From contig JAHDVX010000015.1 of the NCBI GenBank assembly GCA_023382455.1, positions 25,309 to 78,006 on the forward strand: a DNA stretch of 52,698 nt. Reading direction: 5' to 3'. The first letter of the stretch is position 1; each line of letters starts with the position of its first letter. The notes beneath the pieces were generated by a model. It saw only the letters and a list, made by a program, of their open reading frames with translations, was not told the origin of the DNA and searched no databases. Below, one piece after another: positions 2,763 to 31,889 of this stretch. The position numbers and the translations under genes were made by a program. The stretch is from Flavobacteriales bacterium (GTDB taxonomy: Bacteria; Bacteroidota; Bacteroidia; Flavobacteriales_F; PHOS-HE28).

Positions 2763-3981
2763 CGAGCAGGATGCGATTGAAAACGTGGATGCCGTTCATA
2801 CGCTCCCGCTTGGTCTCTTCACGCATCACATAGGTGCCGTTCCGCAAGGAGAGCATCATGGGCATGCGGTACTTTCCCGTGGTGAATGTGGTTTCCTTGA
2901 TCAGACTGAAGTCCTCATCGTACTGTTGCAAGGTGTAGCCTCCGCGTAGTTCCTCACCGGGGCGATCCATGCGCCGGTGCCGCAGCACCACCAGATAGCG
3001 CTTAGTGGGGTGATCATAATGGATCGTCTCAATGAACCCACCATTTTCCATTCGCTCCTTCAGAGAATCCCCGAGTGTTAAGAGCCCATCCTTGGGTATC
3101 ATGATGGGTTCACGGTACACGGGACCAAAGGCTGAGCGCACAGTGAACTCCCGTTCAAGGGTCATCAGTGTTGGATCCAGCGTTCGAACCACCGGGCTAT
3201 TGATGTTGAACGTGAACCATTGACCGTTCACGCAAGCGGACCAACGTACGCGTTGCACGTGGGCCAACGCTTGGTTCGTGTCCGGCCGGTGCATCGCCGG
3301 CCCCCAATCCAAACGCAAGCTGTCGTAGATGGACCCCAAGTCGACCGATGCGAAGTGCGGGCCATTCGCAACAAGCCACTCATACTTATACATATCGCCC
3401 TGCGGCGCATCCTGTCCGAAGTAGCTCCCTATTGATCCGTACAAGAGCGATACATGGAAGCAGGCGCGGTGCCCCACCACGAACGGCGTGAAAAAGGAAG
3501 GACGTAGCTCATATGTCAGCCCGTTCGACAAGCGCAAACTTTCCGTCAGGTCCGCCACTACCGAGCAGCTGCCCAGCCGGTCGATGATGGCCAATTTGTT
3601 ACTGTTCGTTCCAGCTACCAGGATGGTATCCGGATGTAAGAACGCCACCCCGCTGATCTTCCCCAAACTGTCCAGTACAATGTCGAGCGGTATGGTGTAC
3701 AGCAACTCTCCATTGGCCGTAAAGACCGTGATCCTCTTGTTGGTGATCACATCGGCGAAGTATACCAATTCGCTGGTGTCCTGTTGTTTGAACTGCTGGC
3801 ACACACCGGTAAGATGGTAACTCAGTGGAAAGCCTGTGTGGAAGACCAAGCTGTCCGCAAATGCGACACCGGTTGTTGGCTCAGCACTATTTCGGCAAGA
3901 GCCTAGGCCGAGAAGCATGACCATGCTGACTAGCACTGAGGACCAGGACCATCTGCGGTCCGGGGTTTGTTCCATGGTCAT
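2752..3981 (-). CDS. DUF4221/6-bladed-propeller-like lipoprotein
   Basis: About 409 residues from the ATG at 3981. A short signal sequence (SVLVSMVMLLGLGSC) ends in a lipobox Cys. The body alternates strand-rich segments, with phrases such as VFTANGELLYTIPL and DGLLTLGDSL, typical of the DUF4221 or 6-bladed beta-propeller lipoproteins abundant in Bacteroidota; this assignment is by appearance only. The frame stays open to 4146, but those codons would place about 55 residues before the signal peptide. A -7-like TACTTTTG lies at 4047-4054, and AGGA sits just before the chosen ATG. The gene overlaps the downstream CPSC lipoprotein, so the two probably form one unit. Confidence 0.75.
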   Translation of the reverse strand: MTMEQTPDRRWSWSSVLVSMVMLLGLGSCRNSAEPTTGVAFADSLVFHTGFPLSYHLTGVCQQFKQQDTSELVYFADVITNKRITVFTANGELLYTIPLDIVLDSLGKISGVAFLHPDTILVAGTNSNKLAIIDRLGSCSVVADLTESLRLSNGLTYELRPSFFTPFVVGHRACFHVSLLYGSIGSYFGQDAPQGDMYKYEWLVANGPHFASVDLGSIYDSLRLDWGPAMHRPDTNQALAHVQRVRWSACVNGQWFTFNINSPVVRTLDPTLMTLEREFTVRSAFGPVYREPIMIPKDGLLTLGDSLKERMENGGFIETIHYDHPTKRYLVVLRHRRMDRPGEELRGGYTLQQYDEDFSLIKETTFTTGKYRMPMMLSLRNGTYVMREETKRERMNGIHVFNRILLDGK

Positions 3982-29111: not shown

Positions 29112-30653
29112 TCACAACTGCTTCAGCAGCCCCCTCATATCCACTTTTTCGCCCACGATGCGGGGCAGTTCGGCGATGGTCACGCGCTCCTGCGCCATGC
29201 TGTCGCGCTCGCGGATGGTCACGGTGTCGGTGGTGAGCGTCTCGTGGTCCACGGTGATGCAATAGGGTGTGCCGATCGCATCCTGACGCCGGTACCGCTT
29301 GCCGATGCTGTCCTTGTCGTCGTACTGGCAGCTGTGGTCCAACTTCAGTGTGTCGATGATCGCGCGCGCCTTCTCGGGCAGCCCATCCTTCTTGATCAGC
29401 GGCAGCACGGCCACTTTCACCGGAGCCAGCGGCGCGGGGATGCGCAGCACGTCACGCGTTTCGCCGTTGGGCAGCTGCTCCACCTGGAAGGCCGCGCTGA
29501 GCACGGCGAGGAACATGCGGTCCAGGCCGATGGAGGTTTCCACCACGTAGGGCACGTAGCTCTCGTTGGTCTCGGTATCGAAGTAGCGCAGCTTCTTGCC
29601 GCTGTACTTCTCGTGGTTGCCCAGGTCGAAGTCGGTGCGGCTGTGGATGCCCTCGAGCTCCTTGAAGCCCATGGGGAAGCGGAACTCGATGTCGCAGGCG
29701 GCGTTGGCGTAGTGCGCCAGCTTGATGTGGTCGTGGAAGCGGTAATTCTCCTCGGGCAGGCCCAGCGCCTTGTGCCAGGCGATGCGCTTCTCCTTCCACG
29801 TGTTGTACCACTCCATCTCGGTGCCGGGCTTCACGAAGAACTGCATCTCCATCTGCTCGAACTCGCGCATGCGGAAGATGAACTGCCGCGCCACGATCTC
29901 GTTGCGGAAGGCCTTACCGGTCTGCGCGATGCCGAAGGGGATCTTCATGCGCGCGCTCTTCTGCACGTTGAGGAAGTTCACGAAGATGCCCTGGGCGGTC
30001 TCGGGCCGCAGGTAGATGGTGCTGCTCTCGCCGCTCACGCTGCCCAGCTCGGTGGCGAACATCAGGTTGAACTGCCGCACCTCGGTCCAGTTGGCGGTAC
30101 CGCTGACGGGGCATTTGATCTCCTCATCGAGGATGAGTTGGCGCAGCGCCACCAGGTCGTTGGCCTCGAGCGCGGCCTTCATGCGGCCCTCCACGGCGTC
30201 GATGCGCTCCTGGGCGCGCTTCACGTTGGGATTGGTGGCGCGGAACTGGGCCTCGTCGAAGGCCGCGCCGAACTTCTTGCGGCCCTTCTCCACCTCCTTC
30301 TCGATCTTGTCGGCGTACTTGGCGATGTGCTCTTCGAGGAGCACGTCCGCGCGGTAGCGCTTCTTGCTGTCCTTGTTGTCGATCAGCGGATCGTTGAAGG
30401 CGTCCACGTGGCCGCTGGCCTTCCAGGTGGTGGGGTGCATGAAGATGGCCGCGTCCAGGCCCACGATGTTCTCGTTGAGCTTGGTCATGGCCTCCCACCA
30501 GTAGCGGCGGATGTTGTTCTTGAGCTCCACGCCGTAGGGGCCGTAGTCGTAGGTGGCGCTCAGGCCGTCGTAGATCTCGCTGCTGGGGAACACGTAGCCA
30601 TACTCCTTGGCATGGCCGATGAGGGTCTTAAGCTTGTCTTCGTTGGTGCTCAT
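29112..30653 (-). CDS. glyS: Glycyl-tRNA synthetase (homodimeric class II)
   Basis: 513 residues from ATG 30653 (MSTNEDKLKTLIGHAKEYG), normal for the eukaryote-like alpha2 type used by Bacteroidota. Motif 1 region FVFPSSEIYDGL..YDYGPYGVELKNN, the insertion FIMHPTTWKASGHVDAFNDPL, motif 2 YLRPETAQGIFVNF...PFGIAQTGKAFRNEI, motif 3 VVETSIGLDRMFLAVL, and an anticodon-binding domain starting APVKVAVLPLIKK. A TACCTTCG box about 50 bases upstream may be its promoter. The open frame beyond 30653 is repeat DNA. Confidence 0.96.
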   Translation of the reverse strand: MSTNEDKLKTLIGHAKEYGYVFPSSEIYDGLSATYDYGPYGVELKNNIRRYWWEAMTKLNENIVGLDAAIFMHPTTWKASGHVDAFNDPLIDNKDSKKRYRADVLLEEHIAKYADKIEKEVEKGRKKFGAAFDEAQFRATNPNVKRAQERIDAVEGRMKAALEANDLVALRQLILDEEIKCPVSGTANWTEVRQFNLMFATELGSVSGESSTIYLRPETAQGIFVNFLNVQKSARMKIPFGIAQTGKAFRNEIVARQFIFRMREFEQMEMQFFVKPGTEMEWYNTWKEKRIAWHKALGLPEENYRFHDHIKLAHYANAACDIEFRFPMGFKELEGIHSRTDFDLGNHEKYSGKKLRYFDTETNESYVPYVVETSIGLDRMFLAVLSAAFQVEQLPNGETRDVLRIPAPLAPVKVAVLPLIKKDGLPEKARAIIDTLKLDHSCQYDDKDSIGKRYRRQDAIGTPYCITVDHETLTTDTVTIRERDSMAQERVTIAELPRIVGEKVDMRGLLKQL

Positions 30654-30723: not shown

Positions 30724-30806
30724 CACGAGCCTTGAGCTGCGAGCTGTGAGCCACGAGCCATAAGCCATAAGCCACAAGCTTCAAGCCCCAAGTCGCAAGC
30801 TTGGGC
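30724..30806. repeat. AAGCCATAAGCC-type repeat array, left of the four-helix gene
   Basis: A purine-rich run of 8-9-base units (GAGCTGC GAGCTGTGAGCC ACGAGCC ATAAGCC ATAAGCC ACAAGCTTC AAGCCCC AAGTCGC AAGCTTGG). TAAGCCACAAGCTTCAAGC at 30768-30786 recurs in inverted orientation at 31230-31248 with one mismatch. Confidence 0.85.
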
Positions 30807-30810
30807 ATGG

Positions 30811-31167
30811 TCACCGTGACTTTAGCTTGGCCATGAAGCCTTGGAGCATCCGTTGTTGTTCCTGCACGGCGGTCAGGACCTGTGCGGCTTCCTTTTGTGG
30901 TGCCCATTTCCTTCGTTGGAGCACAAGCGTTTGCGTTTCAAGTTCAAAGGTTGAGCCCAAGGCCATTTCCATGAAACGGTACTTGTCCTTTTCGCTGCGA
31001 CGCGAATTGCCTTCCGCAATGTTGGAAACGATCGAGATCGCGGCGCGTGTTGACTGGCCCTTCAACTCGGCCACCTTCTGCCAAGGCAGTTCCTCATACA
31101 TATCGAAAACGAGGTCGGTGATGTCCATTGCCTTTTGCCAGATGAGCAGCTTTTTGAAGTCCTTCAT
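30811..31167 (-). CDS. Four-helix-bundle protein (23S rRNA intervening-sequence family)
   Basis: 118 residues. Opening FKKLLIWQKAMDITDLVFDMY is diagnostic of the S23/IVS four-helix-bundle family, followed by ELKGQSTRAAISIVSNIAEGNSRRSEKDKYRFMEMALGSTFELETQ. Relatives were first seen in intervening sequences of Leptospira 23S rRNA genes, and others are accessory proteins of diversity-generating retroelements (Avd); most are stand-alone genes of unknown role. Here the gene is framed on both sides by inverted AAGCC-type arrays, as if the gene and the repeats form one unit. A TACCTTCC box and a CGTATC-GTT-GATACG hairpin (31192-31206) precede it. Confidence 0.9.
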   Translation of the reverse strand: MKDFKKLLIWQKAMDITDLVFDMYEELPWQKVAELKGQSTRAAISIVSNIAEGNSRRSEKDKYRFMEMALGSTFELETQTLVLQRRKWAPQKEAAQVLTAVQEQQRMLQGFMAKLKSR

Positions 31168-31191
31168 GGTGTGGTTTTCGGGAAGGTATAG

Positions 31192-31206
31192 CGTATCGTT
31201 GATACG
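31192..31206. repeat. Short hairpin upstream of the four-helix gene
   Basis: CGTATC-GTT-GATACG, six perfect base pairs with a three-base loop, between the gene start at 31167 and the right repeat array. Confidence 0.4.
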
Positions 31207-31217
31207 TGGGCCACAGC

Positions 31218-31260
31218 CGAAAGCGCCAAGCTTGAGGCTTGTGGCTTAGGGCTTGAAACT
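31218..31260. repeat. AAGCC-type repeat array, right of the four-helix gene (inverted)
   Basis: CCAAGCTTGAGGCTTGTGGCTTAGGGCTTGAA, the reverse-complement orientation of the left array. GCTTGAGGCTTGTGGCTTA (31230-31248) pairs with 30768-30786 at 18 of 19 positions, and CCAAGCTTG is also mirrored at 30796-30804. Confidence 0.85.
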
Positions 31261-31268
31261 CACGGCCG

Positions 31269-31280: not shown

Positions 31281-31889
31281 ATGATCGAACACCGCGGCAC
31301 CCTGATCAGCGAGGAGCTTTTCGAAAAGCGCTTCGTCTGCAACCTGGATGCGTGCAAGGGCGCGTGTTGCGAGGTGGGCGATAGCGGTGCACCGCTGGAG
31401 CCGGAGGAGGCCAAATTGATCGACCAGCACTATGCGGCCATTGAGCCGTACATGACGGCGCGCGGCCGGAAGTCGGTGAAGGAGCAGGGCTGCACAAGCG
31501 TGGTGGACCTGGACGGCGAGCTGGTGACGCCCATCGTGCAGGAGTACGCCGAATGCGTGTACGCCAAGAAGGATGCGAAGGGCGTCTGGAAATGTGGCAT
31601 CGAGCAGGCGTACCACGACGGCAAGATCCCCTTCAACAAGCCCAAGAGCTGCCACCTCTATCCCATCCGCGTCACCAAGCTGAAGTTCCACGATGCGCTG
31701 AACTACCACCAATGGGAGATCTGCGCGCCGGCCTGCACGCTGGGCGAGCAGCTGGGCGTGCCCACCTTCCGCTTTCTGAAGGATGCGCTGACGCGCGTGT
31801 ACGGCGCGAAGTGGTACGACAGGCTGGAGGAAATCTACGCCGAGTGGCTGAAACAGAAGGAGCCGGCCGGGAGGAAGTTGGTGAAGTGA
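31281..31889 (+). CDS. DUF3109 family protein, probable metal-binding
   Basis: 202 residues, normal for DUF3109. A cysteine-rich N-terminus (CNLDACKGACCEVG, with later Cys in EQGCTS, EYAECVY and WKCGIE) and a second set in NKPKSCHLYPIRV and EICAPACTLG suggest a bound metal or Fe-S cluster, related to the YkgJ/UPF0153 zinc- or iron-chelating group. No signal peptide. The function is not established to my knowledge. It lies alone, right after the repeat array. Confidence 0.88.
   Translation: MIEHRGTLISEELFEKRFVCNLDACKGACCEVGDSGAPLEPEEAKLIDQHYAAIEPYMTARGRKSVKEQGCTSVVDLDGELVTPIVQEYAECVYAKKDAKGVWKCGIEQAYHDGKIPFNKPKSCHLYPIRVTKLKFHDALNYHQWEICAPACTLGEQLGVPTFRFLKDALTRVYGAKWYDRLEEIYAEWLKQKEPAGRKLVK

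Follow-up and report, generated by a model that had tools for sequence, protein, structure and literature searches.

A probable small mobile foldback element: an S23-family gene within inverted heptamer arrays between two host genes of a Flavobacteriales bacterium

Layout of the locus

Between two divergently transcribed host genes, a flavobacterial contig carries a short gene framed by arrays of heptanucleotide repeats that mirror one another. What this unit is, and whether it can move, is the question raised by the locus, which lies in a 52,698-nucleotide stretch of contig JAHDVX010000015.1 (assembly GCA_023382455.1), hereafter called the window. In our view, positions 30727-31254 belong to a widespread class of small foldback elements that are mobile and in which an S23 gene lies within heptamer arrays, mostly inverted, between host genes (probability about 0.7). 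The features of the locus are as follows.

29112-30653, minus strand: left neighbour, class II tRNA synthetase gene (PF00587 and PF03129), presumably glycyl (glyS); host gene, outside the element
30727-30804, plus strand: left arm, tandem RAGCNNN heptamers (core 30727-30786, degenerate units continuing to 30804)
30811-31167, minus strand: S23/IVP gene (PF05635), 118 amino acids, ATG to TGA
31168-31225, minus strand: putative leader, from the gene to the right arm
31226-31254, minus strand: right arm, opposite-strand heptamers (core 31230-31254, weaker match up to 31266)
31281-31889, plus strand: right neighbour, DUF3109 protein gene (PF11307, E 4e-66); host gene, outside the element

The tRNA synthetase and DUF3109 genes are divergent, and the S23 gene lies between the two. 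A preliminary description of this DNA had placed a four-helix-bundle gene between inverted AAGCC-type arrays, and its coordinates and mismatch count proved correct: TAAGCCACAAGCTTCAAGC (30768-30786) and the sequence at 31230-31248 are reverse complements apart from a single mismatch, and CAAGCTTGG (30796-30804) has its mirror copy at 31226-31234. A repeat search returned inverted arms at 30743-30781 and 31228-31266 (39 nt, 79%) and at 30762-30786 and 31230-31254 (25 nt, 92%). The unit had also been called symmetrical, at about 540 bp; the arms are indeed mirrored, but the left array is the longer, with nine RAGC units (30727-30786) versus four on the right (31230-31254), so that the symmetry is not perfect. 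Within the leader, TATACCTTCCC (31180-31190, minus strand) resembles the Bacteroidota -7 element, TAnnTTTG, and is a putative promoter. Between it and the right arm lies a perfect 6-bp palindrome, CGTATC-GTT-GATACG (31192-31206).

The product of the gene matches PF05635 (23S_rRNA_IVP) over the whole domain (residues 5-110 against profile positions 1-106 of 106; E 6.1e-28, 97.6 bits against a cut-off of 33.8). No family besides PF05635 was matched at E ≤0.001, and hence no HUH (Y1) transposase; no transposase was found inside the unit, which may be non-autonomous, as the preliminary description suggested. The sole PDB chain retrieved by sequence at E ≤0.01 was 2GSC (XCC0516; E 7.9e-14). The Xanthomonas S23 protein is described as a homopentamer of four-helix bundles (PMC4990558), and Avd of diversity-generating retroelements is reported to be similar to PF05635, with alignable structures (4DWL and 2GSC; PMC10053308). 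The S23 protein is under purifying selection: dN/dS was 0.06-0.08 in the subfamily of the window gene (4 of 15 pairs with unsaturated dS) and 0.015-0.16 over S23 pairs with unsaturated dS, many pairs being saturated. The exception was one nearly identical pair at 0.61 (dS 0.009).

Period-7 arrays around S23 genes

The preliminary description proposed testing whether four-helix-bundle genes of Bacteroidota, here PF05635 genes, have such repeats at their flanks more often than expected by chance, and the answer is a strong yes. The main sample comprised 133 PF05635 genes from 61 genomes (68 genes in 34 genomes of the genus and 65 in 27 other genomes of the class), these being the better-scoring among the matches listed rather than all PF05635 genes. 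An array lay within 400 bp of 66 of the 133 genes, on both sides of 31, and no period-7 array was detected within 400 bp of the other 67. The detector takes any array of period 7, and parts of an N-run (L072) and of a C-run (L110) were called as arrays too; both loci have another array, so the total of 66 is unchanged, and discounting the C-run lowers the two-sided count to 30.

Array densities gave the same picture. In the genus set, DNA lying no more than 300 bp from one of the 68 S23 genes totals 61 kb and contained 61 arrays; the other 824 kb contained 16, and 220 kb sampled at random from three genomes of the genus contained none. The class set had 45 arrays in 59 kb near S23 genes versus 55 in 528 kb. 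Periods 5, 10, 11 and 13 showed no comparable excess near S23 genes; periods 8 and 14 rose in parallel with period 7, though with fewer arrays, as indels within heptamer arrays would lead one to expect. The preliminary description had named repeats equally common without the gene as a point that would tell against it, and this applies in part: arrays without the gene do occur, though much less densely.

Two further sets extended the comparison. A scan of genome contigs with nine S23 proteins gave a named set, the best 80 loci among the matches listed, with 74 arrays within 250 bp (39 kb) versus 47 beyond 500 bp (289 kb). Among its 14 loci not labelled Bacteroidota, several of which come from metagenome bins and may be mislabelled, five passed (L325, L340, L363, L366 and L377) and nine did not. 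On cyanobacterial plasmids, where 14 of 22 records were examined, arrays were present at 12 of the 14 and on both sides at 11, with 13 more arrays in 55 kb farther off.

Arms that match each other

Arm matching was scored by local alignment of the upstream flank against the reverse complement of the downstream flank, with a threshold of at least 18, for 131 genes (two G028 genes with short or N-rich flanks were dropped). This threshold was reached by 63 of the 131 genes, versus 7 of 659 swapped pairs and none of 110 flanks 2 kb away. The window unit scored 20.0, and scores of at least 20 were seen in 4/659 swapped pairs and 0/110 flanks 2 kb away. Corresponding fractions were 29/78 versus 37/1155 swapped pairs in the named set, and 7/14 versus 8/182 on cyanobacterial plasmids. 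Inversion, which had been claimed for the flanks, is the commonest arrangement but not the only one: direct matches of at least 18 were found at 20/131 genes (4/659 swapped pairs), some loci have both kinds, and at window-type genes in G023, G033, G025 and G007 the matches on both sides are direct, not inverted.

The arms match each other and not a fixed sequence, and diverged orthologous elements can change heptamer jointly. The repeat had been characterized as AAGCC-type, of which the period of 7 recurs and AAGCC does not; the heptamer varies between elements, and a fixed terminal inverted repeat common to the copies is absent. For example, G003 alone holds three heptamers at its S23 elements (AACCCGC, AGTCCGG and AACTGAC), and at a CCG-domain site some copies have an AGTTGTC-like heptamer and others a CGTAGTT-like one, both arms agreeing each time. 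Same-site orthologues in which both arms scored at least 15 were grouped by S23 identity: an arm resembled its own partner more closely than its orthologous counterpart in 19 of 24 pairs at 50-70%, in 15 of 33 at 70-85%, and in 1 of 8 above 85%; this concerted effect fades above 70% S23 identity.

A rule of one heptamer per S23 subfamily was also considered and is a tendency, not a rule. At least three AAGCCAC matches were found in 9 of 13 genomes with a window-type S23 gene (E ≤1e-40) versus 6 of 32 others, and in 8 of the 13 when matches at the S23 gene itself were left out (hand count). In two of the six others (G003 and G028), most matches are single tandem arrays. ATTGCTG matches also occur in genomes without a sufBC-type S23 gene, and G004 (91% complete) has 15 AAGCCAC matches and no window-type S23 gene.

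Likeness to rRNA intervening sequences

The Coxiella rRNA intervening sequence (IVS) is described as 428 nt long, with a 28-bp stem and an S23 gene in its loop (PMC4990558). With the 23S rRNA IVS of Coxiella, Leptospira and others, the window unit shares the protein family, a gene looped by complementary arms, and a size of about 0.4-0.5 kb. Unlike these, the window unit and its relatives lie between protein genes, in either orientation, and have element-specific heptamer arms. Located in the tRNA-synthetase/DUF3109 spacer, the window unit is outside rRNA and is hence IVS-like rather than an rRNA IVS.

This shared build and size would also suit an intervening sequence of mRNA, in which the arms would pair in an operon transcript and cleavage of the stem by RNase III would release the S23 segment from the mRNA, as happens to the IVS in 23S rRNA. 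Elements inside operons (e.g., sufB-sufC, cas6-cas4 and cmr2-cmr3) fit such a process, as does the window unit folding better than shuffles as RNA (z -2.3, 2/100). However, the unit also folds better than shuffles as DNA (z -2.9, 0/100), and some S23 genes on cyanobacterial plasmids are antiparallel to their host genes (nrdB-nrdA and ABC transporter genes). Moreover, an RNA stem is predicted to hold more G-U than A-C mismatches, whereas the arms of 105 loci, read on the coding strand, had 147 G-U and 170 A-C mismatches, with no strand bias. We regard an mRNA intervening sequence as unlikely and read the window unit as a mobile element that corresponds to the rRNA intervening sequence but stands alone.

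Filled and empty plasmid sites

Gene and arms were present or absent together at nine cyanobacterial plasmid sites, for each of which a near relative has neither an S23 gene nor a period-7 array in the spacer. Identity between filled and empty flanks was about 85 to 99.6%, and empty spacers measured 2 to 245 bp. The clearest case is site A, filled in Trichormus variabilis and Scytonema plasmids and empty in Aulosira and Fremyella, with flanks 96-98% identical. Filled and empty versions differ here by 428 or 414 bp, of which 5 bp are a duplicated GTAAT; two of the four pairings show this duplication, and a base difference in the right flank blurs it in the rest. The element has AAA...TTT ends. 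At the other eight plasmid sites, no clean target duplication was seen when judged by eye; at the cas6-cas4 site, the empty plasmid carries a different 245-bp spacer. The earlier suggestion of a mobile unit with terminal arrays is supported for the class, on nine filled/empty sites and one clean 5-bp duplication; at the window's own site, only presence/absence between species is seen, and no precise junction is readable.

Derivatives of the elements were also seen. In Nostoc C052, site A holds a 132-bp spacer that encodes the start of an S23 protein (by eye) and is an element remnant. At the TraM site of a Nostoc ATCC 53789 plasmid (L405, 1324-1583), there are heptamer arms without an S23 gene, possibly a gene-less derivative, and relatives carry the full element.

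The 5-bp duplication and the AAA...TTT ends at site A, together with inverted terminal arms and small size, would also suit a MITE or of transposon cargo, where the arms would be the terminal repeats of an insertion sequence served in trans by a conventional transposase. Against this, arm sequence varies by element even within one genome, so that no fixed end is visible to a transposase, and selection conserves the S23 gene. Such cargo is, in our estimate, distinctly unlikely.

Heptamer repeats away from S23 genes

The RAGC-type repeat is a dispersed family, often forming hairpins, and is not confined to the S23 gene. In the window genome (G000), AAGCNNNAAGCNNNAAGC had 27 matches versus 3 for the reversed control, and most of them fall where no PF05635 gene is present. 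Further arrays were found on C5, C7 (three), C10, C26 and C36, none of them among the four PF05635 places of the genome; single AAGCNNNAAGCNNNAAGC matches on C12 and C18 look different. Some of these arrays touch coding sequence. On C7 (L063, 1746-5507), in-frame heptamer arrays near 2990-3030 and 3720-3820 lie inside a gene with methylmalonyl-CoA mutase domains and add peptides such as AASHKPQASSLKL, for which in-frame palindromic elements inside genes offer a comparison. On C26 (L065, about 3220-3300), a second inverted heptamer pair may sit in a coding frame.

Across the class, matches to one three-unit heptamer pattern were counted together with those to its reversed control, itself another heptamer. 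These correlated with the number of PF05635 genes (Spearman 0.51, 198 genomes; 0.40 among the 136 genomes of at least 3 Mb), with kinship and genome size as confounders. Genomes with at least five matches numbered 1 of 41 where there is no S23 gene, 7 of 60 where there are one to three, and 44 of 97 where there are four or more; matches are not arrays, since one array may give several, and some sit at S23 genes. In sampled stretches, nine gene-less genomes (290 kb) yielded 4 arrays and ten gene-rich ones (338 kb) yielded 19; three of the 4 come from an AT-rich genome of 0.5 Mb in which control periods score similarly.

Should heptamer arrays be neutral intergenic microsatellites of slippage-prone spacers, S23 genes would merely be there beside them. 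A study cited in PMC4679880 indeed found heptanucleotides to be the most abundant short tandem repeats in most of its genomes, and arrays occur in coding genes and in S23-less spacers: based on rough gene calls, 25 of 332 such spacers bear an array, versus 36 of 87 adjoining S23 genes. However, the excess beside S23 genes, at about fivefold (spacers) to fiftyfold (genus densities), recurs in several sets, the same heptamer stands in both flanks, S23-less genomes have few matches, and gene and arms are jointly absent from empty sites. Neutral slippage as the whole explanation is thus improbable, and we place it after the two readings above; arrays that belong to a mobile S23 element account better for these observations.

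The window site and site sharing within the genus

Among 30 DUF3109 loci, 18 have a tRNA-synthetase start within reach. Five of these 18 spacers are filled with an S23 gene (G000, G016, G017, G020 and G040), eight are without one at 176-362 bp, and five are longer with no S23 match. The closest relative of the window genome by DUF3109 is G017 (93% identical), in which the element is reversed and the S23 protein only 70% identical to that of the window, less than those of more distant genomes (78-80%). The opposite orientation and the disparity between S23 (70%) and DUF3109 (93%) suggest a separate arrival in G017. An in-place inversion between G000 and G017 was considered, and the same two values are better fitted by replacement or separate arrival. 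Five of the eight empty spacers (L204, L207, L220, L222 and L225) hold another palindrome, with GGAC/ATGGAC motifs, and those of G044 and G009 have no such palindrome (both by eye). It is as if the glyS-DUF3109 spacer attracted foldback sequences of several kinds.

At sufB-sufC (31 loci), seven spacers carry S23 genes of different kinds with different heptamers, the S23 identities to the query being 76-100%, 44-47% and 54%. Where no S23 match was found, the two genes are adjacent at 15-305 bp in six loci, and the spacer measures 475 bp in one. In the other 17 loci, sufB is not adjacent. The empty spacers L281, L282, L287 and L289 show a small hairpin of GTCGACCC and its complement (by eye).

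The class does move, but in this genus only infrequently, as shared sites and orientations indicate. Fifty-four of 62 genus S23 genes, which fall into ten subfamilies, are at a site common to another species; four subfamilies occupy one site only and six occupy two to six, counts in which contig ends may split sites. Orientation was the same in 85 of 90 same-site pairs, opposite in four (all with G017) and mixed in one. A recent transfer between G009 and G007, whose S23 identity is 98.7%, was also considered; the similar stretch of 3.3 kb there lies within generally similar DNA.

The least probable explanation is that S23 is a cellular regulator in conserved operon positions with the arrays as its operator or attenuator sites, which would suit sites common to several species, strong purifying selection and the -7-like motif in the leader, but which accords poorly with a sufB-sufC spacer taken by different S23 kinds with different heptamers and with presence/absence between near-identical plasmids.

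A possible mode of spread and its relation to known systems

How a small mobile foldback element of this kind might move can be outlined from its parts. The window copy would have arrived as its plasmid relatives did. As the ends have no fixed sequence, whatever handles the arms must read shape or periodicity, and the arms would accordingly be recognized by these and not by sequence. The arms may grow by slippage and be kept alike by exchange or templated repair. Being the sole product encoded by the unit, the S23 protein would be the obvious candidate to handle them; it may bind the arrays and favour the spread or persistence both of the element and of gene-less heptamer hairpins, a role comparable to that of RAYT towards REP, with a catalytic step possibly borrowed from the host or another element. 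More tentatively, and with greater doubt than we attach to the element itself, S23 might be the specificity factor of a new nuclease-less mobile class, reading the periodicity and fold of the arms, spreading both cassette and gene-less hairpins, and causing the heptamer arrays of Bacteroidota and Cyanobacteria; rRNA IVS would then be cassettes that landed in rRNA hairpins.

The REP/REPIN-RAYT system consists of a conserved gene flanked by short repeats that are also dispersed and are rarer in genomes without the gene. S23 genes are similarly flanked by repeats that are also dispersed without the gene and are fewer in gene-less genomes. Unlike RAYT, S23 is a four-helix bundle with no HUH nuclease, and the repeats are tandem heptamers, not single palindromes, with a unit that varies.

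TAACTGA heptamer arrays have been reported in Beggiatoaceae, Cyanobacteria and Bacteroidetes (MacGregor 2015, PMC4679880). Like the arrays described here, these are tandem heptamers, occur in spacers as well as ORFs, vary by indels mostly in 7-nt steps, and are found in two phyla that also figure here. In contrast to the present analysis, the main text of that paper follows one heptamer, mainly as direct repeats, with no evident mechanism of transfer, and it does not contain the terms helix bundle, intervening, S23 or STRR. Searches of open-licence PMC text showed no description of a link between S23 genes and heptamer arrays. Stand-alone cassettes with heptamer arms give S23 genes a testable role and link rRNA intervening sequences to intergenic DNA. 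They also offer a source for heptamer arrays, whose spread had no evident mechanism in PMC4679880, and the element may explain the origin of puzzling heptamer repeats in many bacterial genomes.

S23 genes in other settings

No S23 genes were found in a phage collection at E 1e-5, and 28 plasmid records carry them, 22 of which are cyanobacterial by name. S23 ORFs have been reported in rRNA insertions of CPR bacteria (PMC11270868), and a PF05635-type label appears, linked to CRISPR, in a figure legend of PMC10910872. On the cyanobacterial plasmids, S23 genes lie between cas6 and cas4 and between cmr2 and cmr3; at L382, L389 and L388, they have heptamer-like arms at cas6-cas4 (type I-D) and cmr2-cmr3 (type III-B). 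These S23 genes are likely insertions and not CRISPR components, a reason for caution with S23 genes met in CRISPR or metabolic operons, which may be passengers. G016 (C23, L074, 284-1168) has a tandem pair of different S23 genes, with heptamer arrays both between the two and alongside.
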